Part shown: positions 1-35,473 of the stretch, piece by piece
Layout of the letters: each line of letters begins with the position of its first letter
Position numbering within the stretch: the first letter of the stretch is position 1
IMG/VR virus record: IMGVR_UViG_3300049491_000278
Location: 1-35,473 of that record
DNA: 35,473 bases
Origin: a virus
Reading direction: 5' to 3' (one strand)
The notes under the pieces: generated by a model
The model's input: the letters and a program-made list of their open reading frames with translations, nothing else
What the model was told of the DNA's origin: nothing
Database searches by the model: none
Made by a program: the position numbers and the translations under genes

Positions 1-243
1 ATGTCAGAAAAAGACACATCATACATGACCATGCGACAGTATCTCTTGCTTTGTATATATGTATGGGAAACTGAAAAACAACATCTTGATGTTATTGGTT
101 GGACTCGTACGAGTTCGCTGTGGTCTGTTGGTAGGCTTGTGGACGGTCGCTGGTATGGCGGCGGTTCGTGGCTGAGGCTTGATGATGACGATGTTGGCGG
201 TCGCGATTCAGGCGATGGTCCTCGTCAGCAGTTTCACTTTTAA
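1..243 (+). CDS. 3' end of DGR target protein B (variable C-terminus), 5' part at 34993-35473
   Basis: This is the C-terminal part of a protein whose upstream part lies at the other end of the window (34993-35473). Joining 35473 to base 128 gives one uninterrupted frame of 198 codons. The ATG at base 1 aligns with an internal Met of the complete paralog at 33103, so it is probably not a start. The last third is Gly/Asp/Arg/Trp-rich and ends GPRQQFHF, in the manner of C-type-lectin-fold DGR target C-termini. It differs from the paralog at 18 of 88 bases (128-215), all explainable by adenine mutagenesis. The segment is visibly GC-richer than its surroundings. Ligand and location in the cell or virion are unknown. 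Confidence 0.85.
   Translation: MSEKDTSYMTMRQYLLLCIYVWETEKQHLDVIGWTRTSSLWSVGRLVDGRWYGGGSWLRLDDDDVGGRDSGDGPRQQFHF
128..215 (+). other. DGR variable region copy B (VR-B)
   Basis: Aligned with 33569-33656 without gaps. The differences are at 128, 133, 148, 149, 155, 163, 164, 169, 188, 190, 191, 199, 200, 205, 210, 212, 214 and 215. At 13 sites one copy has A; at the other five the copies carry two different non-A bases, as expected if both mutated away from a template A. Most affected codons are NNT or NNC, which fits AAT/AAC template codons. The following stretch, GTCCTCGTCAGCAGTTTCAC, is identical in both copies despite containing A, as expected of an initiation-of-mutagenic-homing site. The DGR mechanism is established knowledge; the assignment here is inference from two copies. 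Confidence 0.8.
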
Positions 244-1117: not shown

Positions 1118-1840
1118 ATGAAATACATGGGAAGTAAAGCAAAACATGCAACTGAAATATTAAATGCTATTCAAGATGAACTGGGTTATCCAAATCATCG
1201 TAATGTATGGGTAGAACCGTTTGTCGGGGGGGGCAACATGATTGCTGAAGTGATAGGAGTAAATAGACGTATTGGAAATGATTTGAATTTGTATGTCGTC
1301 AGAATGTTTCAATCATTGCAAAAAGGTTGGATACCACCAGATGAAATATCTGAAGAAAGATACCAAGAATTGAAAAGAAACGCACATTGTTTTATTGAAG
1401 ACCAAGCAGAAATACGAGGATTTGTCGGTATAGGTTGCTCATACTCAGCTAAGTGGTTTGGAGGATATGCAAGAGGAAATGACAACAAAGGAAATCCACG
1501 AAACTATTGTTTAGAAAGTAAAAAGAATGTTTTGAATCAAGTACCTAAAATTGCTTCAGTAGAATTTTATGGAGGAGATTATCAAGCATTTCCTATACCA
1601 GACAATTCAATCATCTATTGTGACCCACCATACCAAGGAACAACACGATATACAGGAAATTTTGACCACGATAGATTTTGGGAATGGTGCGATGAAAAAG
1701 TACAGCAAGGACATAAAGTATTTGTATCAGAATATAATGCACCTGAAGATTGGCGATGTATCTGGGAAAAGAAAGTAAACAATTCACTTACAAAACAAAC
1801 AGGAAGCAAACAAGGAATAGAACGTTTATTTACAAAGTAA
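1118..1840 (+). CDS. dam: D12-class DNA adenine N6-methyltransferase
   Basis: The 240-residue protein has the order expected of D12-class methylases: an N-terminal KYMGSKAKH segment, SAM-binding motif I as PFVGGGN at about 34-40, an ND motif near 54-55, and the catalytic DPPY at 169-172. It would transfer a methyl group from S-adenosylmethionine to adenine N6 in DNA; GATC is the usual Dam target, but specificity cannot be read here. No endonuclease partner is nearby, so it is best seen as an orphan methylase protecting phage DNA or influencing regulation. Motif I is encoded across a run of eight G (1226-1233), unusual in this AT-rich genome. The sister cassette has an unrelated gene in this slot (34102). 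Confidence 0.93.
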   Translation: MKYMGSKAKHATEILNAIQDELGYPNHRNVWVEPFVGGGNMIAEVIGVNRRIGNDLNLYVVRMFQSLQKGWIPPDEISEERYQELKRNAHCFIEDQAEIRGFVGIGCSYSAKWFGGYARGNDNKGNPRNYCLESKKNVLNQVPKIASVEFYGGDYQAFPIPDNSIIYCDPPYQGTTRYTGNFDHDRFWEWCDEKVQQGHKVFVSEYNAPEDWRCIWEKKVNNSLTKQTGSKQGIERLFTK

Positions 1841-2518: not shown

Positions 2519-2794
2519 ATGAAACTAAACACAAAACAAGTATTAGTAAATTTTAAAAACGAAGAACTTAAAAACGGAGAAAAATCTCTTACTATTGCAG
2601 ATGTGCTTTGTATGGTACTTTCAGGAAAAGTATCAAATCCAGTAAAAGGCTGGTATCTTGGTAAAGAAATCGCTACCAAAGATGAAGTAACTCTTAAAGC
2701 AGAAGATATTGTCTTTCTCAAGAAGGAACTTGAAGCAACTGAAATTTGGAACGCTATTGTTGTCGGACAAATGATTGAAATGTTGGATAAATAA
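2519..2794 (+). CDS. Conserved-looking hypothetical protein at head of packaging operon, 91 aa
   Basis: A small, soluble, mixed-charge protein (ADVLCMVLSGKVSNPVKGW, then KKELEATEIWNAIVVGQMIEML) with predicted helices and no cysteine motif or membrane span. It is the first gene after a strong promoter and ends one base before the next start codon. Position before the terminase genes hints at a packaging or early-morphogenesis role, but I do not recognise the family. Confidence 0.65.
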   Translation: MKLNTKQVLVNFKNEELKNGEKSLTIADVLCMVLSGKVSNPVKGWYLGKEIATKDEVTLKAEDIVFLKKELEATEIWNAIVVGQMIEMLDK

Positions 2795-2795
2795 T

Positions 2796-3026
2796 ATGCC
2801 ACTACTCAAAGGAAAAAAGAATATTGGTAAAAACATCACTAAACTCAAAGTAGATAACATGAAAAAAAGTAAAGCTATGGGTGCAAATGGTGTTAAAAGA
2901 CCAATGAAACAAATACTTGCTATGGTACTATCAAAGGCAGGTGTTAAGAAAAATGAATTAAAACATTCAAAAATGCACGAAAAGAAAGAATCAATGTCAA
3001 TGAAACTGAAAGAAAAGAAAATGTAA
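2796..3026 (+). CDS. Small lysine-rich phage protein (MPL-KGK family), 76 aa
   Basis: The sequence starts MPLLKGKKNIGKNITKL and continues with RPMKQILAMVLSKAG, the layout of a short lysine-rich protein common in phages and usually found near terminase or portal genes. The tail is highly basic (KMHEKKESMSMKLKEKKM). It is probably nucleic-acid binding, but its role is not established. A longer frame starts upstream inside the previous gene; the ATG at 2796 is preferred because it restores the family's MPL start and the compact 1-base spacing. Confidence 0.75.
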   Translation: MPLLKGKKNIGKNITKLKVDNMKKSKAMGANGVKRPMKQILAMVLSKAGVKKNELKHSKMHEKKESMSMKLKEKKM

Positions 3027-3049
3027 AAAAAAAGTTAGTTTATATACTC

Positions 3050-3067
3050 TGCTCATAAGAAATTGTG
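3050..3067 (+). promoter_or_regulatory. Leader hairpin resembling leader repeat 3
   Basis: CTCATAAGAAATTGTGAG resembles the hairpin core of leader repeat 3 (CTCA, a spacer, TGTGAG) and likewise lies about ten bases before an ATG (3077). A -10-like TATACT sits at 3043-3048. Its presence argues for ATG 3077 as the start instead of GTG 3065, which would fall in the stem. Confidence 0.4.
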
Positions 3068-3076
3068 AGTAGTAAT

Positions 3077-3325
3077 ATGAAAGCTAAAATCACATCAGCA
3101 ACAGCAAAAGGTAAAACTTGGAAAGCCGAGATTATTTCTAATGGTAAAAAAGTAAAAACTATTCAAGGAGGACAAAAGGGAGCTAAACTAGGAGGTTCAA
3201 GAACAAAAGCATTTTTAGCTAGACACGGTAACACTACAGCAAAACAATACATAAACGACCTACGTTGGAAAGGTGGAGCTAAGATAGGTTCAACTATTAC
3301 TATTCCTAAAGGAAAGAAGATATAA
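3077..3325 (+). CDS. Small basic hypothetical protein, 82 aa
   Basis: The protein runs MKAKITSATAKGKTWKAEI, a Gly/Lys-rich middle (GGQKGAKLGGSRTKAFLARHG) and ends in PKGKKI. It looks like a small beta-rich, nucleic-acid-binding protein. The pattern of a short basic strand region followed by an R..RH segment loosely recalls DUF5754-type proteins of other viruses, but I would not assign it. GTG 3065 would add four residues; ATG 3077 is preferred because of the hairpin upstream. The stop is directly followed by the next gene's ATG. Confidence 0.65.
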   Translation: MKAKITSATAKGKTWKAEIISNGKKVKTIQGGQKGAKLGGSRTKAFLARHGNTTAKQYINDLRWKGGAKIGSTITIPKGKKI

Positions 3326-3326
3326 C

Positions 3327-3713
3327 ATGGAAGATAACAACATAATAATTGAAAACAATCAAGATGTAACTCTATCAAATAATGGTAAAGTAATAGAAAG
3401 AGAACCAAATGGTCAATTAAAGAAAGGTACTATCTTAAATCCAAAAGGTAAACCTAAAGGTTCAAGACATTTCTCAACTCTTATTAAAGAAGCTATACAG
3501 AAAGTAGCTGATGGAGATGATGAACCTGCTGATAGACTTATAGTTAAACAACTTGTAGACAAAGCGAAGAAAGGAGACTTATCTGCTATTGATAGAGTTA
3601 TTGATAGAGTAGATGGTAAAGCAGAACAAACTATAAACCTTGATGCTGATATACACACAGACGATGGACTGACTAAAGAAGAAAAAGAAGCACTATTAAA
3701 TCTTTTAAAATAA
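3327..3713 (+). CDS. DUF5681-type protein, probable small terminase subunit
   Basis: Residues ~28-50 match the GQxxxGxxxNPxGxPKGS signature of DUF5681 (NGQLKKGTILNPKGKPKGS), followed by a helical region (FSTLIKEAIQKVADGDDEPADRLIVKQLVDKA) and an acidic, helical C-terminus. DUF5681 proteins typically sit immediately upstream of large terminase genes, as here, and are thought to act as small terminase subunits that recognise the packaging site and load the motor. The assignment rests on motif plus position; no helix-turn-helix is obvious to the eye. Confidence 0.75.
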   Translation: MEDNNIIIENNQDVTLSNNGKVIEREPNGQLKKGTILNPKGKPKGSRHFSTLIKEAIQKVADGDDEPADRLIVKQLVDKAKKGDLSAIDRVIDRVDGKAEQTINLDADIHTDDGLTKEEKEALLNLLK

Positions 3714-3714
3714 T

Positions 3715-3870
3715 ATGTTTACTATAAAGATACAACATGCAACTGATAAAATAGGTTTTAATGTATTTGTAAGAAAAGATAATAAAATAACTGCTTTTTA
3801 CTGTGAAAAAGAAAATGATATTAAAGATAGTGTTGAATTAGCAAAACAAAGACTATTAAATGATAAATAA
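3715..3870 (+). CDS. Small hypothetical protein overlapping terminase, 51 aa
   Basis: A short frame (MFTIKIQHATDKIGFNVFVR to LAKQRLLNDK) that starts one base after the DUF5681 gene and ends 11 bases inside the large terminase gene. The alternation of small polar and hydrophobic residues suggests a beta-strand pair plus a C-terminal helix. The overlap suggests translational coupling to the terminase. No family recognised. Confidence 0.6.
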   Translation: MFTIKIQHATDKIGFNVFVRKDNKITAFYCEKENDIKDSVELAKQRLLNDK

Positions 3871-5347
3871 AAAAGCCCTAGAGAAAATGCTATCAGGTAC
3901 TCCTCAAGAGAGAAAGTTCCTTGCAGAACAATCTTTTGGGCTTTTTGCTATTTATTACTTTTCAGACTATTTCAAATATGCACTCGCAGATTACCACTAT
4001 GACTTCTTCCAAGACTTACATGACCTTACTGACAATAAGATACGAGAGGTAGCATGGATTGGATATCGTGAATGTGCAAAGACTACCGTAGCAAAACTAG
4101 GTATCATATGGCTTATTGCAAACAATAAACGTAAATATATCAACGTAGATTCTTTTGATAAAGAAAATGCAGAACGTATACTCTTTGACGTTGCATATGA
4201 AATGGTAAACAACAAACGATTGCAAGCAGACTTTGGTGTTTTATTCTCAAAGGAACGAGGTATACAGGATATTAAACAGAATCGTATCAATAACTTCGTA
4301 TGTGAAAATGGTGTGCGTGTAGAAGCTCATAGTACACAAGAAAGTGTTCGTGGACGTTTACACTTAAATCAACGTCCTGATGCTCTTATTCTTGACGATA
4401 TAGAGACTAACAAGACTAAAGATTCACAAGCATACACAAAACAAGTAGCAGACCACCTTTCAGAAGCAATGGCTGGTATGAGTACAGACGGATTCATGTT
4501 GTATCTCGGTAACTACATTACAGAATATGGAAATATCGCCAACATATTTAAACGTGCTGAATCTGACCCAAAAATACGAGTACGCAACATTCCTATCATT
4601 ATTGATGGTAAACCTGCATGGGACGCAAAATACTGTCTTACAGATGATGAAGCAAAATTAACAGGCAAAGTTTCTATCGAAGATAAACAAAGACAACTAG
4701 GTTCACAAGTATTTAGTTATGAAATGATGAATCAACCTATTGATGATACTATTGCAGAGTTCAAAAAAGAACACATACAAACATTTGAAGAAGATAAACT
4801 AAAGCACATAAATACCAATACCTATATCACTATAGATACCGCTATATCAGAGAAAACAAGTGCAGACTTTACTGGTATCACTATCAATAGAGTTTCTCAA
4901 GAGAATAAATGGTATATCACAGCGTATAAAATCAAAGTAAATCCTAAAGACTTGATTGACCACTTGTTTCACTTACAAGATACCTACAGACCTGTTTTAT
5001 TTGGTATAGAAAAAACTACATTCACAATGGGTATAAAACCTTTCCTTGAAGATGAAATGCGTAACCGTAATAAGTTTCTCAACATTCGTGAACTGACACA
5101 CACAACACAGTCAAAAGAAACTAGAATTAGAGCATTGATACCACGTTGGGAGAGTAAAAGTATCTTTTTTGTAGGTAATTGTGATGACTTAGTGCAAGAA
5201 ATGAGAACATTCCCACGAGGAAACCATGATGACGTGCTAGATTCACTTGCTATGCAAGAAGAAGTAGCAGAAAAACCTATCAACATGGATGAATGGGATA
5301 GGATTTTAGGAAATAATAGTGTCATGTACCCTGATATAGGAATATGA
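3860..5347 (+). CDS. terL: Terminase large subunit (packaging ATPase-nuclease)
   Basis: A 495-residue protein of normal TerL length. The N-terminal ATPase has a Walker-A-like GYRECAKTT at about 68-76 and a Walker B / catalytic segment DALILDDIE at about 174-181, followed by a coupling region (MLYLGNYITEYG). The C-terminal RNase-H-like nuclease shows acidic clusters at TYITIDTAIS (Asp about 326), FGIEKT and HDDVLDSLAM (about 455-464). It would power DNA translocation into the procapsid and cut the concatemer. It ends in TGA, so TGA is a stop in this genome. The neighbouring small-terminase candidate and portal complete the packaging set. Confidence 0.95.
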   Translation: MINKKALEKMLSGTPQERKFLAEQSFGLFAIYYFSDYFKYALADYHYDFFQDLHDLTDNKIREVAWIGYRECAKTTVAKLGIIWLIANNKRKYINVDSFDKENAERILFDVAYEMVNNKRLQADFGVLFSKERGIQDIKQNRINNFVCENGVRVEAHSTQESVRGRLHLNQRPDALILDDIETNKTKDSQAYTKQVADHLSEAMAGMSTDGFMLYLGNYITEYGNIANIFKRAESDPKIRVRNIPIIIDGKPAWDAKYCLTDDEAKLTGKVSIEDKQRQLGSQVFSYEMMNQPIDDTIAEFKKEHIQTFEEDKLKHINTNTYITIDTAISEKTSADFTGITINRVSQENKWYITAYKIKVNPKDLIDHLFHLQDTYRPVLFGIEKTTFTMGIKPFLEDEMRNRNKFLNIRELTHTTQSKETRIRALIPRWESKSIFFVGNCDDLVQEMRTFPRGNHDDVLDSLAMQEEVAEKPINMDEWDRILGNNSVMYPDIGI

Positions 5348-9124: not shown

Positions 9125-10342
9125 ATGGCAGCAAATCTAGATGCTTTTAAGACAGCATTCAGTAACACTTATCAGGAAATATTCCAAAAAGTGCTTACAG
9201 CGATGAAAATCGCAAACACACGACTTCTTTCAGACCTTTACTACGGTAAATCTATCGAACGTGTATACATTGACATTTCAGCAGCAAACGTAGAAGACAT
9301 TACAGCATATGTAGATATGACTTCACAAGCAGTATCTGACACATCAGAAACTCTTACTGTAGACAAAAACAAAGGTATTATGTTCCAAATTTCTGAAAAG
9401 GAATTGGTACAAGCAGGTCCTTTGAATCCTGGAGAATTTATTGGTATGCAACTTGCTACAAAAGTAGCTATCTACGTTGATGCTGATGTTCTTTTTGAAA
9501 CAACAAACGCTTTGTATGACTTCGACAACGGAGACCTTACAACTGGTGCTTCTACAGGTACACCTATTACTCTTTCAAGTACAACTGTACCTCAAATGGT
9601 AATGCGTCTTCCTGCAAAACTTCGTGCTAAAACAAACCAAGTTATCAATGCAGGTTCAAACCTTGCTTTCGTTGTGGACTCATACGGTATTGCTGATATG
9701 TTCCAATACTTGCTCGGTAAGAATGCAGACTTCGTAAATGCTTTGTTCCAAAACGGTTACGTTAATGAACAAGTAGCAGGTGCTAAAGTATACGTTTCAG
9801 AAAACCTTACTGGTGAAGCTACACTTACTTCAACAGGAACATTCTCTGATGGAGATACTGTAACAATCGGTGGAGTGGTACTTACAATGAAAACAACTCT
9901 TGGTTCTACACCAGGTAACGTTCTTATTGGTGCAAACGCAGCTGCTTCTATCACAAACCTTGCTTCTGCTATCAATGGTTCTGCTGGTGCAGGTACAACA
10001 TATGTTGAAGTTTCTGCAGCAAATAGAATCGTTCTTTCTAAGACACTTCGTCTAACAGCTACAGCTACATCAGCTACTGTTCTTACAATCGTTGGTAAAG
10101 GTTCAGGTCGTCTCGTACTATCTGAGACTGCTGCAAACTTCTCATGGACTACAAACTTTATCCATGCTTACTTCGGTAAAGAAGGTGCGATTGACGTTGT
10201 TGTTCAAAAAGATGTTAAGGCAGACATGCGTCCAGAACCTAAACAACCTACAACAAACATCATTTCACGTGTATTGTACGGTGTTAAAACGTTCCAAGAC
10301 GGTGCTCAAAAATTCCTCGACGTTCTTATTGACGCTCGCTAG
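9125..10342 (+). CDS. Major capsid protein
   Basis: 405 residues, next to the scaffold gene. The body looks HK97-fold-like of the P22/N4 coat type: an N-terminal helix, IERVYIDISAANVEDITAYVDMT, a NKGIMFQISEKELVQAG segment, a spine-helix region with PQMVMRLPAKLRAK, and a C-terminal GAIDVVVQKDVKADMRPEP. Residues ~230-345 look like an inserted beta domain (GDTVTIGGVVLTM, NVLIGANAAASITNLASAI, ATVLTIVGKGSG), probably surface exposed, as in P22-like coats with inserted domains. It forms the icosahedral shell. The codons are more C-ending and GC-richer than in neighbouring genes, as expected for a highly expressed protein. Confidence 0.88.
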   Translation: MAANLDAFKTAFSNTYQEIFQKVLTAMKIANTRLLSDLYYGKSIERVYIDISAANVEDITAYVDMTSQAVSDTSETLTVDKNKGIMFQISEKELVQAGPLNPGEFIGMQLATKVAIYVDADVLFETTNALYDFDNGDLTTGASTGTPITLSSTTVPQMVMRLPAKLRAKTNQVINAGSNLAFVVDSYGIADMFQYLLGKNADFVNALFQNGYVNEQVAGAKVYVSENLTGEATLTSTGTFSDGDTVTIGGVVLTMKTTLGSTPGNVLIGANAAASITNLASAINGSAGAGTTYVEVSAANRIVLSKTLRLTATATSATVLTIVGKGSGRLVLSETAANFSWTTNFIHAYFGKEGAIDVVVQKDVKADMRPEPKQPTTNIISRVLYGVKTFQDGAQKFLDVLIDAR

Positions 10343-10396: not shown

Positions 10397-10921
10397 ATGT
10401 ACAAAAACTACAAAGACCCAATAAAGCGTTCTAGTTATATGAAAAAATATAGCAAAGAATGGCGCGAAAATAATAAGGATAAAATAAAAGAATATAATCG
10501 TATCTATATGCAAAAATATAGAGAAGATAATAAAGAAAAAATATCCTTATACAAAAAGTCTTTATACAAAAATAATCCTCAAAAATACTTAGAATATTCT
10601 AATAAAAATAGATATAAGTATATAAAAAGTCCAAAATCAAGATTTTCTAAATATAAATATGGTGCAAAATCAAGAGGATATAATTTTGACTTAGATTTTG
10701 ATAATTTTACTAAATTACTTAGTGGTCAATGCCATTATTGTGGTTCAAAAGAAAATATTGGAATTGATAGAATGGATAATAAAATAGGATACACTATAAA
10801 AAATTGTGTATCTTGTTGTACAGAATGTAACTTTTTTAAAGGAAGTAAAGAATATACTTACTTTATAGAAAAGTGTAAAAGCATATCATATTTTGTTGTA
10901 AATAACATGAGGTTGGGATAA
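10397..10921 (+). CDS. Free-standing HNH homing endonuclease
   Basis: 174 residues. The N-terminal half consists of basic repeats of the YxKKxxxNNKDKIKEY kind (about residues 15-75), a DNA-binding pattern common in phage HNH enzymes. The C-terminal half has a zinc-bound HNH core: CHYC at 112-115, IDRMDN at 123-128, and CTEC at about 141-144 followed by NFFKG. It would nick or cut intron-less homologous DNA to spread itself. It sits between the capsid and connector genes, has its own promoter and is markedly richer in AT and lysine than its neighbours, all signs of recent insertion. No intron is apparent around it. Confidence 0.88.
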   Translation: MYKNYKDPIKRSSYMKKYSKEWRENNKDKIKEYNRIYMQKYREDNKEKISLYKKSLYKNNPQKYLEYSNKNRYKYIKSPKSRFSKYKYGAKSRGYNFDLDFDNFTKLLSGQCHYCGSKENIGIDRMDNKIGYTIKNCVSCCTECNFFKGSKEYTYFIEKCKSISYFVVNNMRLG

Positions 10922-10940: not shown

Positions 10941-11537
10941 ATGAACTCAACACAAGACATAATAACAGCATTTGAATTATACTTTGGAGATGAAACAAGT
11001 CTTTCTTCTGCTGAAGAATTAGCATTGGTACAAAAGAAATATAATGAAGTTCTTATGAGTGAAGAATGGGAATTTCTTAAAACATCTGCTAGTGGGACAA
11101 TGGCAGGTACAGACATCACACAACCAATAGATTTTGACAGAATGACTACAGACCAACAAATTTATATAGGTTCAGGTCTACAAAACTTTCAAGTAATTCC
11201 TTTTACAGACAGACGTAAATATGTAAATCAACGTGGTTTCTTTTATTACGATGCAAAAAATGAAAAATTTGTTTCTACACAAACAATCAATGATACTTAT
11301 TCATTTGATTATATTTATGTTCCACCTGCACTAGACTTGGTATCATCTAATCCTGTATTCCCTGTTCGTTTCTACGACATGCTCTACCACGCTATGTGTA
11401 TTGATAGTGACATCATCAATATGTCAGACAAGGCACGTTCATACGCTAAAGAAAATGAAGCAAAATACCAGCAATTCCTCAATAGTATGAAATCTTGGAA
11501 CTTAAAATTATCAGGATTTAACACCTACGGAGTGTAA
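10941..11537 (+). CDS. Head-tail connector / tail adaptor (P22 gp4-like)
   Basis: 198 residues, mostly helical. It has the layout of podovirus adaptor or tail-tube A proteins: an N-terminal helical part (LALVQKKYNEVLMSEEWEFL), a middle beta part (FTDRRKYVNQRGFFYYDAKNEKFV, YSFDYIYVPPALDL), then FPVRFYDMLYHAMCIDSDII and a C-terminal YAKENEAKYQQFLNSMKSWN. It would form a ring under the portal and receive the nozzle. It overlaps the start of the nozzle gene by one base (TAATG), suggesting translational coupling. The call rests on position and pattern. Confidence 0.72.
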   Translation: MNSTQDIITAFELYFGDETSLSSAEELALVQKKYNEVLMSEEWEFLKTSASGTMAGTDITQPIDFDRMTTDQQIYIGSGLQNFQVIPFTDRRKYVNQRGFFYYDAKNEKFVSTQTINDTYSFDYIYVPPALDLVSSNPVFPVRFYDMLYHAMCIDSDIINMSDKARSYAKENEAKYQQFLNSMKSWNLKLSGFNTYGV

Positions 11538-13444
11538 TGGCTTTTATCGAATATAAAACAGAAGGATATGTAAGTGGTATTCAGAACAAACTACCTGCTG
11601 AAGATATTAAACGTGAAGCAGGTGCTGATGCAGTAAATTGGTTTGCAACTGATGGAGTACTTGAACTTGTAAGAGGACGAAGACTTGTAGGTAGTGCAGG
11701 TTCTCTTGGGGGTGTATTTGGAGAGATATTTGCTCCTAAACGTAATGGAACAAAAGTACATTATCGTAAAATAAACACTAAGATTCAATACTTTGATGGT
11801 ACTACATGGCAAGATGTTATAACTGGTTTGACTGCTGGTGCTAATTACACGTTCTCGTCTTATATCTCACAACTTGGTGCGTATGTATATGCTTCTGGTA
11901 TAGACGGATTGTACAAAATTGCTACTGCTAATCCTGCTTCATTCAAACAAATGTATGATGCTACTAAAAACTTTAAAGGATTTTCTATCATCAATGACCA
12001 ACGTATGTTTATGTGGGATGTATCAAGTCCTAACATAGATAAAACTGCTGTATACATGTCTAAAATTGACCCACAAGGTACAAACTATACAACAGTAACA
12101 AATGAAAATCTTGGAGCATCTGGTTCAACAACATATTCAGGAACATTAAGTGCTGTTACAGGTACTCGTTTTTGTCGTATAACAAGTATTACAGGTACAA
12201 CTGGTGCAGGTGTTGAAACATTCACTGATAATGGCTCAGGAGTGCTCATAGGCTCTCTAGGAGGCACTGGAACAATCAACTATGCTACTGGTGCATACTC
12301 TGTAACCTTTAGTGGTGTTGTAACATCTGGTACAGTTAGTGGTAATTACCAATGGGAAGACAGTAATGTTGGTGGTGTAACTGATTTTACTTTTTCACCA
12401 ACACGTCTTGCAGGTGAAGGAGATATTATTCCACAAGAATATCTCGGTGAACCGATACAAAACATTCTCGTCTTCGAGGGTAAGTATTATTCATTCAAAA
12501 AGACTTGTGTATACGAGCTTGACCTAACTACAGATGATACAAACGCAACAAATAAAGTATATCGTTCAGATATTGGTATACCTTCTATGCGTGCATGTGT
12601 ATCTACGGGTAAAGGAATGATATATTTAGATACTGCAAACCCTGATAAACCTATCCTTTCAATACTTCAACGTAATCCTATTGGTGGAAACCTTGAACCA
12701 ATAAACCTCACACCATTGTTCAAATGGGAAAATTATACTTTTGATGAGTGTAATGTAGATACTTGGGGTGAAAATATCATTGTAAATGCAAAAGGTGATG
12801 GTTTCACAAAAAACAACCTTTTATTCCTTGTGAACGTAGCACAAAATTACTCTGTAGACATCACGGGATATGGAGGTAATACTTCTGCTAAAAATGAAGG
12901 ACTTTTATACATAGGTGATTCTATTTCAGATAGTGTGTATGAAGTATTTTCAGGTTTTGATGACTTAGATAACGTGATTGATAACTATTGGGACGGAAAA
13001 GCAGAAGATTATACTAATGATTTACTTAAAAGATTCCGTTTCTTACGATTAAAAGGATTGATTGACACTGCTCAATCAATAGAAGTATGGGCAAACTTTG
13101 ACTATGCAGGATTTACACAACTTGGAACGATTGTCGGAACAGGAAGTTATGTTGATTACACAGACCCACAAACTATTGGTGCAAATATGATAGGAACAGT
13201 AACGATAGGAGGAGGTGACCCAGCTATTGCGTATCCTTACTTACTAGAAATACGTTGCCGTGTGCCGAAGTTCAGAGTAAGACAACTACGATTTATAGCA
13301 AAAGGAATAGGGTATGCTTCAGTTCAGTGGACAATAGACGTAGATATACTGAAATTTGACCAACGAATACCAGTACGAAATAGACAAAAAGAAAATGTTT
13401 CACTTGATGGATTGATAACTGACCAACCAAATCCGACACACTAA
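11537..13444 (+). CDS. Tail nozzle / stabilisation protein (P22 gp10-like)
   Basis: 635 residues of repeated beta blades (e.g. FAPKRNGTKVHYRK, GAYVYASGIDGLYKI, FSIINDQRMFMWDV, KYYSFKKTCVYELDL), as expected of a beta-propeller nozzle that plugs the portal after packaging. A low-complexity insertion at about 195-275 (Gly/Thr/Ser-rich, ending TINYATGAYSVTFSG) looks like an added surface domain. The C-terminal ~150 residues form a separate beta domain. The gene follows the connector gene with a one-base overlap, the order seen in P22-type tail modules. No tape-measure or sheath gene is present, which supports a short tail. Confidence 0.75.
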   Translation: MAFIEYKTEGYVSGIQNKLPAEDIKREAGADAVNWFATDGVLELVRGRRLVGSAGSLGGVFGEIFAPKRNGTKVHYRKINTKIQYFDGTTWQDVITGLTAGANYTFSSYISQLGAYVYASGIDGLYKIATANPASFKQMYDATKNFKGFSIINDQRMFMWDVSSPNIDKTAVYMSKIDPQGTNYTTVTNENLGASGSTTYSGTLSAVTGTRFCRITSITGTTGAGVETFTDNGSGVLIGSLGGTGTINYATGAYSVTFSGVVTSGTVSGNYQWEDSNVGGVTDFTFSPTRLAGEGDIIPQEYLGEPIQNILVFEGKYYSFKKTCVYELDLTTDDTNATNKVYRSDIGIPSMRACVSTGKGMIYLDTANPDKPILSILQRNPIGGNLEPINLTPLFKWENYTFDECNVDTWGENIIVNAKGDGFTKNNLLFLVNVAQNYSVDITGYGGNTSAKNEGLLYIGDSISDSVYEVFSGFDDLDNVIDNYWDGKAEDYTNDLLKRFRFLRLKGLIDTAQSIEVWANFDYAGFTQLGTIVGTGSYVDYTDPQTIGANMIGTVTIGGGDPAIAYPYLLEIRCRVPKFRVRQLRFIAKGIGYASVQWTIDVDILKFDQRIPVRNRQKENVSLDGLITDQPNPTH

Positions 13445-23783: not shown

Positions 23784-24950
23784 ATGTATAAACTTGGAGC
23801 AATACCCAATAAAAGAGACGTTCGTGATATCCCTGTAGGTGCTGTACAAAGCCCTGTAATCGTCCCAGACGCATTTAAAACAGATATTAGTATGATACCT
23901 ATACTCAATCAAAATGCACTTGGTGCGTGCGTAGGACACGCTCACGCTGTTATTCACGCATACCTAGAATATAAAGAGACAGGAAGTGTAAAACTATTCT
24001 CTCCTAGATACTTATATGCACTTTCTAAAAGAATAGACGGACTTGCAACAGAAGGCACATATCCTCGTGTTGCTAATCGTATTATGCAAAAAAATGGTTG
24101 TGCTTTAACGGACACTGTCCCTAATGACACGACACTTTCACATAACGAATACATCAACATAAAAGACACTGTAAAAGTCACAAAACAGGCAAGTATTTAT
24201 AAGACAAAAGGGTACGCAGATGTTTCACCAACAAAAGAAGCTATAAAACAAGCACTATATCAAAATGGTGTTATTGCTATGTCTATTTGTGTTGGCGACT
24301 ATAATTACGCTCCAATGGCTAAAGGTGATATAGGACAACATCGTGTTGTCGCTTATGGCTATCAAACTGTAGGAAATGACCTTAAAATACTTTGTCGTAA
24401 TTCATGGGGTGAACAATGGGGTGATAAAGGAAATTTTTACATCATGTTCAATACTTTCAAAGATGGTATTTTTGATATAAACGTATATGTAGATATTCCT
24501 AATGAAATACTTGAAGAATACAAAAAAGTAGACGTAACTATCACTCGTTCAAAAAGTACTAAAAAACAAACACTTGGAAAATTAGTAGCAAAACGTAATG
24601 GTGCTACGTTTACTTGTGATACGTTAGAGTTACCAGACCTTCAAAATGCTCCTAATATCTCGTGCGTTCCAAAAGGTACATATGATGTGAGTTATACACG
24701 TTCTGGTCTTTTCAAAAAGTCTACGTATGAACTTTTAAAAGTGCCTAATCGTTCAGGCATAAGATTGCATAGCGGAAATTACGCATGGAAAAAAGACGGA
24801 AAAGGTGATATTCAAGGTTGTATACTACTTGGAAGTGGATTTTCTGACATAAACAAAGACAATAACGAAGATATTATAAACAGTCGTTTGACAATAAACG
24901 CTTTCGAGCAGTTTATGGGAAAAACTTCTTTCAAACTTTTAATAAAATAA
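23784..24950 (+). CDS. Papain-like (C1) cysteine peptidase fused to a DUF5675-like domain
   Basis: 388 residues. The N-terminal ~240 form a papain-fold peptidase with the expected residues: oxyanion Gln43 and catalytic Cys49 (NQNALGACVGHA), His186 (GQHRVVAYGYQ) and Asn206 in RNSWGEQWG. Residues ~250-388 (VTITRSKSTKKQTLGKLV, SCVPKGTYDVSYT, NRSGIRLHSGN, GCILLGSG) match the DUF5675 pattern found in phage lysis regions. There is no signal peptide, so holin-dependent release is likely. It may cut wall-peptide or surface-protein bonds during lysis, or process virion proteins. The fusion is unusual. Domain identity is fairly sure; the substrate is inference. Confidence 0.82.
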   Translation: MYKLGAIPNKRDVRDIPVGAVQSPVIVPDAFKTDISMIPILNQNALGACVGHAHAVIHAYLEYKETGSVKLFSPRYLYALSKRIDGLATEGTYPRVANRIMQKNGCALTDTVPNDTTLSHNEYINIKDTVKVTKQASIYKTKGYADVSPTKEAIKQALYQNGVIAMSICVGDYNYAPMAKGDIGQHRVVAYGYQTVGNDLKILCRNSWGEQWGDKGNFYIMFNTFKDGIFDINVYVDIPNEILEEYKKVDVTITRSKSTKKQTLGKLVAKRNGATFTCDTLELPDLQNAPNISCVPKGTYDVSYTRSGLFKKSTYELLKVPNRSGIRLHSGNYAWKKDGKGDIQGCILLGSGFSDINKDNNEDIINSRLTINAFEQFMGKTSFKLLIK

Positions 24951-33102: not shown

Positions 33103-33684
33103 ATGAAAATAACAATCACAAAGAAAGAAGTAGATGAAAAAATCTTAAAAATATACAATCTTCCAAAAGAAACCATTGTGGAGATTGTAGGTGAGAGTAT
33201 TGCACAGCAAATACTCGGTGCAGTTTCGCCAAAATCATTAGAATACTGGACCATAACTGATAAAGCAAGTGAAAAAACAAGTGAAATACTTGCAAAAGCA
33301 CGAAGTTTGTTTGATGTATATGTATACGATGAAAAAGATATTGATGCAGTATTCCCTGCACCAAAAAAAGACATAACAGTATCTTTCAAGAAATCTATAG
33401 AACCAGATGAAGAACATAGAAATAAGTCATACAATGATTTTATGTCAGAAAAAGACACATCATACATGACCATGCGACAGTATCTCTTGCTTTGTATATA
33501 TGTATGGGAAACTGAAAAACAACATCTTGATGTTATTGGTTGGACTCGTACGAGTTCGCTGTGGTCTGATGGTCGGCTTGTGGACGGTTACTGGTTTGGC
33601 GGCCTTTCGGGGCTGAGGCTTGATGATGGCAGTGTTGGCAATCGCAATTCGGACTGTGGTCCTCGTCAGCAGTTTCACTTTTAA
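33103..33684 (+). CDS. DGR target protein A (variable C-terminus), 193 aa
   Basis: Three parts. The N-terminal ~60 residues (MKITITKKEVDEKILKIYNL) diverge slightly from the paralog at 34993. Residues ~62-155 are identical in both copies and end with MTMRQYLLLCIYVWETEKQH. The C-terminal ~40 residues (GRLVDGYWFGGLSGLRLDDG, then GNRNSDCGPRQQFHF) are the variable segment. This is the layout of a DGR target with a C-type-lectin-like C-terminus. There is no signal peptide or membrane span, and it is far from the tail genes, so it may be a cytosolic or accessory binding protein instead of a fibre. It heads cassette A. Confidence 0.82.
   Translation: MKITITKKEVDEKILKIYNLPKETIVEIVGESIAQQILGAVSPKSLEYWTITDKASEKTSEILAKARSLFDVYVYDEKDIDAVFPAPKKDITVSFKKSIEPDEEHRNKSYNDFMSEKDTSYMTMRQYLLLCIYVWETEKQHLDVIGWTRTSSLWSDGRLVDGYWFGGLSGLRLDDGSVGNRNSDCGPRQQFHF
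33286..33568 (+). repeat. Exact 283-base repeat within target gene A
   Basis: Identical to 35191-35473. The last 127 bases are also identical to 1-127. The identity stops exactly at the first VR difference (33569 vs 128). Confidence 0.95.
33569..33656 (+). other. DGR variable region copy A (VR-A)
   Basis: Homologous to 128-215 with 18 substitutions and no gaps. Affected codons include GAT (GTT in B), TAC (CGC), TTT (TAT), CTT (GGT), AGT (GAT), AAT (GGT), AAT (GAT), GAC (GGC) and TGT (GAT). Nearly all are reachable from AAT, AAC or TAT by changing A only. The flanks are identical. Confidence 0.8.
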
Positions 33685-33727
33685 TTTTTTATTTTAACCC
33701 TGTGAAAGAACTATTACTAGAACAAAA

Positions 33728-33777
33728 ACAGTCGAAGAAAGTTTATAACACCCACCCAAAGGGATAAGTTTGGGGAA
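33728..33777 (+). repeat. Cassette leader repeat 1, copy A
   Basis: Identical to 281-330 (50 bases). It precedes the unrelated gene at 33783 and contains the CCCAAA / TTTGGG hairpin. Confidence 0.85.
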
Positions 33778-33934: not shown

Positions 33935-33963
33935 TAACTAACCCAGTATAAACTGGAAACAAA
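33935..33963 (+). repeat. Cassette leader repeat 2, copy A
   Basis: 29 bases identical to 681-709, with the CCAGT-ATAA-ACTGG hairpin. Five bases separate it from the ATG at 33969. Confidence 0.85.
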
Positions 33964-33968
33964 TAACC

Positions 33969-34088
33969 ATGTCAGAAGACGGATTATACCCAATAGATTG
34001 CGAAACGTGCGGTGAGTCAATTACAAGCGATAATGAGGACTTTAACGGTATGTGTAAGGACTGTTATGAGACTCCAATAGAGGAATAA
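33969..34088 (+). CDS. Free-standing zinc-ribbon protein, 39 aa
   Basis: MSEDGLYPIDCETCGESITS, then CKDC about 12 residues later, and an acidic tail. Its 120 bases are identical to 996-1115, the end of the 133-residue gene of cassette B. Here leader repeat 2 lies directly before it, so it is expressed as a separate ribbon. Zero divergence points to a very recent duplication or to strong conservation. Confidence 0.7.
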   Translation: MSEDGLYPIDCETCGESITSDNEDFNGMCKDCYETPIEE

Positions 34089-34101: not shown

Positions 34102-34701
34102 ATGACAAATACACAGTCACATGCGAAAAAAGAATTAGATATACTATTAAAAACAACACCAGATGCAATTATTAAAGACTTTGTCCCTGAAATTCTTGAA
34201 ATTTGCGAAGCATTTGGAAATTCTGGTCAATCTGGTGCTTCTGCTCCATATACAGCAAGTGCCTTATCTCAAGCAATAAAAAAACTATGTCTTTATCAAC
34301 CAATATGTCCTATTACTGGTATTGATGAAGAATGGAATAATTGTTCCGATATGGGTAATAAAGGTAATATGTATCAAAACAATAGATGTTCAAATATATT
34401 TAAGAAAGGTAAAGATGGTAGAGCATATTTTCTTGATGCAATAGTTTGGCAAGGAGAAGATGACTATGACACTTTTACTGGAACTATAAACGGAATAACC
34501 AGTAGACAGTATATAAAATCTTTCCCTTTTGAACCAAAAACATTTTACATAAATGTTGTAAGAGATTTTAATATAGATGGATTACCAGAAAAAGACATTA
34601 TTGAAACAGGACTTGGTAAATATACATATAAAATAAAAGACGAAAATGAAATAAAAGAAGTCTTTAATTATTACGATAAATATAAAAAAGAAGATTACTA
34701 A
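34102..34701 (+). CDS. Conserved phage protein of unknown function, 199 aa
   Basis: The middle (SGQSGASAPYTASALSQAIK, PICPITGIDEEWNNCSDMG, YQNNRCSNIFKKGKDGRAYF and ITSRQYIKSFPFEPKTFYI) follows a pattern I recall from a protein present in many unrelated phages, with function unknown. The front is helical and the end is charged. It sits in the slot that holds the adenine methylase in cassette B. No catalytic motif can be named from the sequence. Confidence 0.7.
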   Translation: MTNTQSHAKKELDILLKTTPDAIIKDFVPEILEICEAFGNSGQSGASAPYTASALSQAIKKLCLYQPICPITGIDEEWNNCSDMGNKGNMYQNNRCSNIFKKGKDGRAYFLDAIVWQGEDDYDTFTGTINGITSRQYIKSFPFEPKTFYINVVRDFNIDGLPEKDIIETGLGKYTYKIKDENEIKEVFNYYDKYKKEDY

Positions 34702-34735
34702 CTAAGAGCATCACATCTCAATAAACTGTGAGAAT
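34700..34735 (+). repeat. Cassette leader repeat 3, copy A
   Basis: 36 bases identical to 1847-1882, overlapping the stop of the 199-residue gene and ending 6 bases before ATG 34742. Confidence 0.85.
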
Positions 34736-34741
34736 GGAAAT

Positions 34742-34992: not shown

Positions 34993-35473
34993 ATGAAAAT
35001 AACAATCACAAAGAAAGAAGTAGATGAAAAAATCTTAAAAATATACAATCTTCCAAAAGAAACTATTGTGGAAATTGTAGATGATAGTCTTGCACAGAAA
35101 ATACTTGGTGCAACTATTACAAATACCATTTTACCAAAACCATCAGAATACTGGACTATTACAGATAAAGCAAGTGAAAAAACAAGTGATATACTTGCAA
35201 AAGCACGAAGTTTGTTTGATGTATATGTATACGATGAAAAAGATATTGATGCAGTATTCCCTGCACCAAAAAAAGACATAACAGTATCTTTCAAGAAATC
35301 TATAGAACCAGATGAAGAACATAGAAATAAGTCATACAATGATTTTATGTCAGAAAAAGACACATCATACATGACCATGCGACAGTATCTCTTGCTTTGT
35401 ATATATGTATGGGAAACTGAAAAACAACATCTTGATGTTATTGGTTGGACTCGTACGAGTTCGCTGTGGTCTG
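34993..35473 (+). CDS. DGR target protein B, 5' part (continues at 1-243)
   Basis: Paralog of 33103-33684. The first ~30 residues are nearly identical, then residues ~31-55 differ, including a five-residue insertion here (ILGATITNTILPKPSEYW against ILGAVSPKSLEYW). From 35191 the sequence equals copy A until the window ends, at the base before the first VR difference. Joined with base 128 it yields a complete 198-residue protein. It heads cassette B. Confidence 0.85.
   Translation, partial: MKITITKKEVDEKILKIYNLPKETIVEIVDDSLAQKILGATITNTILPKPSEYWTITDKASEKTSDILAKARSLFDVYVYDEKDIDAVFPAPKKDITVSFKKSIEPDEEHRNKSYNDFMSEKDTSYMTMRQYLLLCIYVWETEKQHLDVIGWTRTSSLWS
35191..35473 (+). repeat. Exact 283-base repeat within target gene B; window-end overlap
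   Basis: Identical to 33286-33568. The final 127 bases (35347-35473) equal 1-127. 127 is a common assembler k-mer length, so the overlap is probably an assembly junction and not a natural terminal repeat. Confidence 0.9.

Follow-up and report, generated by a model that had tools for sequence, protein, structure and literature searches.

How two genes of one phage genome came to differ over 88 bp near their 3' ends while the bases on both sides of that segment stayed the same is the question raised by this locus. The window, meaning the whole stretch of 35,473 nucleotides that was analyzed, is best read as an essentially complete 35.3-kb genome of a tailed phage that infects Patescibacteria. 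Tailed-phage genes for the large terminase, portal, major head protein, replication, and recombination are present in it, and relatives of the terminase were found in 44 IMG/VR records at 45-81% identity. A papain-like protease fused to DUF5675 is encoded at positions 23784-24950.

In the Nomurabacteria order, a terminase match at E ≤ 1e-10 was obtained in 52 of 397 genomes, in most cases a remote one, and the best three were informative. One, G826:C6, is 35.9 kb long, carries end repeats of 139 bp, and represents a phage binned with that genome. In the other two, G535:C2 (409 kb) and G827:C6 (68 kb), related phage structural genes lie beside core genes, which from their sequence we take to be those for YchF, the leucyl-, alanyl-, prolyl-, and cysteinyl-tRNA synthetases, DnaB, and DnaJ. 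This position beside core genes in Patescibacteria contigs indicates that the phage group integrates into Patescibacteria, and the putative related prophages support the host assignment.

Two target genes and their variable regions

The features of the phage and of the related host loci are listed in Table 1. Both contig ends lie inside the duplicated target gene, and the terminal repeat measures 127 bp (1-127 = 35347-35473). Since this repeat is part of a duplicated gene, circularity is no independent proof of completeness. The second variable region (VR-B) is not part of an 80-aa gene opening the contig but of the 198-aa gene that starts at 34993 and crosses the join to position 243. The 5' parts of the two target genes have diverged and are distinguished by a 15-bp insertion; therefore, the identity preceding the variable regions does not simply reflect a recent duplication of the whole gene.

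Table 1 Coordinates of the features in the phage window and in three host-type DGR loci
Feature	Position	Strand	Description
Target gene 1	33103..33684	+	193 aa; C-terminal part homologous to Patescibacteria DGR targets
Identical stretch	33286..33568	+	283 bp, identical in both target genes; includes the 127-bp contig terminal repeat
108-nt block, gene 1	33562..33669	+	TGG TCT ... CGT CAG; gap-free alignment to the L070 and L068 TRs
VR-A	33569..33656	+	stretch with the 18 differences
Candidate homing end, gene 1	33658..33669	+	GGTCCTCGTCAG, IMH-like
Tad3 homologue	34102..34701	+	type I Thoeris inhibitor, between the target genes; PF25185, E 7e-27
Target gene 2, 5' part	34993..35473	+	whole gene 198 aa, continues at 1-243 over the contig join
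Target gene 2, 3' part	1..243	+	contains VR-B
108-nt block, gene 2	121-228		counterpart of the block in gene 1
VR-B	128..215	+	stretch with the 18 differences
Candidate homing end, gene 2	217-228		GGTCCTCGTCAG
DNA methyltransferase	1118..1840	+	D12-class, adenine; after target gene 2
L070 target	2674-3447
L070 TR	3690-3797
L070 Avd	3823-4221	-
L070 RT	4153-5184
L068 target	9359-10147
L068 TR	10429-10536
L068 Avd	10559-10864	-
L068 RT	11172-11951
L118 target	359-1237
L118 TR	from 1410
L118 Avd	1540-1845	-
L118 RT	1923-2945

Comparison of the two variable regions (VRs) gives exactly 18 differences over 88 positions, and the 283 bp upstream are identical in both genes, in agreement with the preliminary description. 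The 28 identical bases which it had counted downstream reach only as far as the last base of the stop codon; the identity itself continues for 35 bp, to position 33691. Its counts by base were reproduced, with A present in 13 of the 18 differences and absent from the other five. The differences affect 13 codons, 10 of them of the form NNT/NNC. All differences except one (17/18) fall at codon positions 1 or 2, and the 13 changed codons result in 11 amino acid changes and two silent ones. The clustering of differences in the VR with sparing of the flanks, also described from the sequence earlier, was significant (Fisher P = 3e-13, VR versus flanks), and A was enriched among the differences compared to the regional composition (P = 2e-4). 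Variation limited to a short 3' segment is what a DGR target gene should show.

Codon adaptation in the VR is low compared to the rest of the phage, none of 411 windows being as low. Its use as proof of overwriting in the phage was rejected because host VRs are GC-rich too, and the GC-rich VR block of the phage resembles them. The low adaptation is evidence only that the block has retained the composition of its DGR lineage.

Host-type DGRs and their template repeats

Genomes were scanned with a composite query of the target domain and the terminase, of which the pattern WTRTSSLW was informative; a second pattern, running over the artificial join of the two parts, carried no meaning. The C-terminal domain (GWTRTSSLW...GPR) was found in five genomes, namely, two Nomurabacteria, one Parcubacteria-group bacterium, and two other MAGs. 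Three genomes (G046, G048, and G049) were recovered again in a sample of one order, and G045 belongs to the same family as G048. Complete DGRs are present at two of the five scan loci (L070 and L068), and a third one, L118, comes from genome G638. Each of them contains a target, a template repeat (TR), Avd, and a reverse transcriptase (RT) which matches RVT_1 and has the motif LGNVTSQ; the Avd proteins of L070 and L068 matched NF033474 and bAvd, in both cases below the curated cut-offs. The target domain was absent from the other IMG/VR contigs, the phage collections, and the plasmid collections searched, and the target protein had no close relatives in IMG/VR. Twelve IMG/VR contigs matching the degenerate pattern GWTRT(S/T)(S/T)LW were rejected, as they contained no homologue once translated.

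The phage target matched that of L070 over 124 aa (tblastn E 5e-19), that is, well beyond the VR, and the most convincing alignment by eye was obtained between the phage protein and the L079 target (179 aa) from Nomurabacteria RE-4nov15-362. Alignment to host targets over approximately 120 residues places the phage protein in the host target family, as a member with a shortened N-terminal part. The VR domain gave no sequence match in Pfam or PDB, and its structure model (pLDDT <50) was too weak to judge a C-type lectin fold.

The 108-nt block of the phage aligns codon by codon, without gaps and at the same length, to the TRs of L070 and L068, which were picked by homology of the invariant residues and not for A content. 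At the 18 variable sites of the phage, A is found at 15 in the L070 TR (28% A; P = 9e-8) and at 15 in the L068 TR (27% A; P = 5e-8), and these two P values are not independent because the TRs are mutually related. Differences between each locus's own VR and TR occur at A in 17 of 17 cases in L070 and in 15 of 16 in L068. The A content at these sites in heterologous TRs, the gap-free blocks, and a common homing end support the earlier claim that both genes were rewritten by an adenine-mutagenic RT. A template without A at the variable sites had been named as evidence to the contrary, and neither the L070 nor the L068 TR is such a template.

The homing end GGTCCTCGT(C/G)AG is common to the phage VRs and the Patescibacteria DGRs. 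Its phage form, GGTCCTCGTCAG, is identical to that in the L070 VR and TR. Of six Patescibacteria VRs read, five retain GGTCCTCGT and the sixth, L067, has one silent change in it. In the phage, GGTCCTCGTCAG would act as the homing end. Bordetella phage BPP-1 has a hairpin/cruciform just downstream of its VR, unlike the phage VRs here, past which no perfect stem of at least 6 bp with a short loop was found within 110 bp. Hairpins of the host VRs are located up to ~55 bp further on and are mostly terminator-like.

The known TRs are not the donors, since only 56-59 of 78-79 non-A positions match the phage VRs. At three of the 18 variable sites these TRs have a base other than A, and for the TCG/TCA difference to arise the true TR would have to carry an A. 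At nine A positions of the L070 TR, both phage VRs share one non-A base, which exceeds the expectation for independent rewriting and calls for another TR or a common history of the two copies. Searches of the viral and genome collections with VR/TR DNA patterns gave no match to a cognate TR, and IMG/VR contains no TR of the phage VR lineage; the cognate TR would sit in a genome outside those examined.

Several minor features of the host loci were observed. The L118 target seems to be out of frame within the VR, which may mean that the gene is broken or that the assembly is wrong at this point. The TRs of L068, L070, and L118 are nearly identical in protein reading (SNGKLxLNNGNxDNRNSDNGPR), and the L070 RT is only 51-52% identical to those of L068 and L118; near-identical TRs despite this RT divergence suggest that the TR/VR cassette is conserved or exchanged. 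Adjoining the homologous target, a second ORF with a W/Y/D/N-rich C terminus (L067:2601-3206) looks like a different type of DGR target in the same Nomurabacteria genome.

Source of the rewriting

No RT was detected in the window by PF00078 at E ≤ 1 or by tblastn with host RTs, and PF00078 was not matched in the 44 related IMG/VR phage records, many of which are fragments. The host Avd gave no tblastn match in the window. An A-tolerant scan of the whole phage genome on both strands found only the two VRs; the best non-VR score (27) was at shuffle level, whereas the true TRs of L070 and L068, used as positive controls, scored 63 and 61, and a TR on the phage record was thereby excluded. The phage feature is a pair of orphan DGR targets, not a complete DGR. 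As RT, Avd, and TR are all absent from the phage, either the rewriting occurs in trans or an RT is missing from the assembly.

The orphan targets have probably been rewritten in trans by a chromosomal DGR of the host, and we infer that the host chromosome is the donor. The phage or prophage would be present in the same cell as the chromosomal DGR, whose RT and Avd would copy the host TR into cDNA, making errors at A. Since the phage VRs have kept both the 108-nt block homologous to the TR and the homing end GGTCCTCGTCAG, this cDNA would home into them, and the 88 bp would be rewritten independently in each gene copy with the remainder spared.

An RT and a TR of the phage's own, acting in cis, would have to lie on a stretch missing from the contig. 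Both contig ends fall in the repeated target gene, so that assembly could have dropped a third unit flanked by this repeat, and the 127-bp end repeat lies exactly within the 283-bp repeat and ends one base before the first variable site, as expected of an assembler stopping at a repeat. Such a loss is nonetheless unlikely in view of the lack of an RT in the 44 related records, fragmentary as many are, and of the related phage contig with the 139-bp end repeat, which at 35.9 kb is of the same size and contains no host-type RT. Moreover, DGRs of the Patescibacteria type are reported to be cellular almost without exception (PMC8144416), and a TR of the phage VR lineage is lacking in IMG/VR. The latter point also weighs against an RT and TR supplied by another mobile element (co-infecting phage, plasmid, or prophage) in place of the resident chromosomal DGR. 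Some DGR in trans is required anyway and the cognate TR was not identified, which would suit such a donor, but the target domain was not found in the other IMG/VR contigs, phages, and plasmids searched, and the known target loci are on chromosomal contigs, making this origin quite improbable.

Alternatively, no rewriting took place on the phage itself, which instead acquired already diversified VR alleles from host targets by homologous recombination (gene conversion). The host-like GC-rich block starting ~24 bp before the VR block, outside the known TRs, and the patchy homogenization of genes 1 and 2, identical over 283 bp and diverged at the 5' ends, are consistent with this exchange. Recombination should, however, import host flanking bases, and the differences are bounded within the TR-homologous block at A sites, both copies having the same phage-type flanks. 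The known host target genes are also only ~30-45% identical in protein, and we consider acquisition by recombination rather improbable. Ordinary divergence, positive selection, or assembly error would dispense with a reverse transcriptase altogether. The comparison is of two sequences only, which gives such causes some room, but the sharp limits, the restriction to codon positions 1 and 2, and the A content of independent TRs at the variable sites (15/18) make them very improbable.

The proposed rewriting by a host DGR can be compared with several known systems. Patescibacteria possess their own cellular DGR clade (DGR clade 2, Roux et al. 2021, PMC8144416). Homologous targets, VR length, homing end, and A-site variation are common to these Patescibacteria/CPR DGRs and the phage, in contrast to which the targets here are phage-borne and without RT, Avd, and TR; the RTs of the host loci may belong to that clade. 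Diversification of DGR targets in trans inside a single genome was described in Thiohalocapsa PB-PSB1 (PMC10907252), where, as in the phage, a target has no RT and TR of its own and the components are located elsewhere. In that bacterium donor and target share one genome, whereas here the target is viral and the likely donor is the host. A VR carried by a phage can be targeted from a DGR on a donor plasmid (PMC3240598). As with Mtd of BPP-1 and other phage DGRs, mutagenic homing would act here on the 3' end of a gene of the phage. BPP-1 encodes RT, Avd, and TR itself and the protein it diversifies belongs to the tail, whereas our phage carries none of the three and has the gene in an accessory island. 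A limited literature search yielded no description of viral VRs served by a host DGR. If a host RT does rewrite the phage genes, a virus is diversified by machinery that it does not carry, and RT-based surveys of DGRs overlook all such targets.

The accessory island and possible counter-defence

The target genes are located far from the structural genes and not near the tail genes. Because they flank the Tad3 homologue, lie near the DNA methyltransferase gene, and stand apart from the tail genes, their products may serve counter-defence as diversified binders or decoys, which is more weakly inferred than the rewriting itself. In gut prophages, second, distal VRs are found near counter-defence genes (PMC12629997), and, as here, the gene with the VR can have a DNA methyltransferase or another counter-defence gene as its neighbour. 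Unlike the phage described here, the gut prophages possess an RT cassette of their own. Targets of cellular DGRs have been proposed as antigen sensors (PMC10907252).

Tentatively, phages of Patescibacteria may retain nothing of a DGR except its target and borrow the chromosomal RT, Avd, and TR of the host, acting in trans, for the diversification of counter-defence proteins of their own. The host's diversified proteins would be defence sensors, which the phage copies would imitate or block; we regard this extension as possible but doubtful. The DGR targets of Patescibacteria are without known function, and their capture by a phage, their duplication, and the proximity of Tad3 and a methyltransferase suggest a role in phage-host conflict.

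Four pairs of repeats were observed in the island (269-330 and 33716-33777; 681-712 and 33935-33966; 992-1114 and 33965-34087; 1834-1888 and 34687-34741). All four are intergenic or at gene ends, three contain short hairpins, and one extends over 123 bp with 100% identity. The repeats bracket different accessory genes in each half, in the manner of exchangeable cassettes, as if a unit of target and cargo had been duplicated and the cargo then exchanged.
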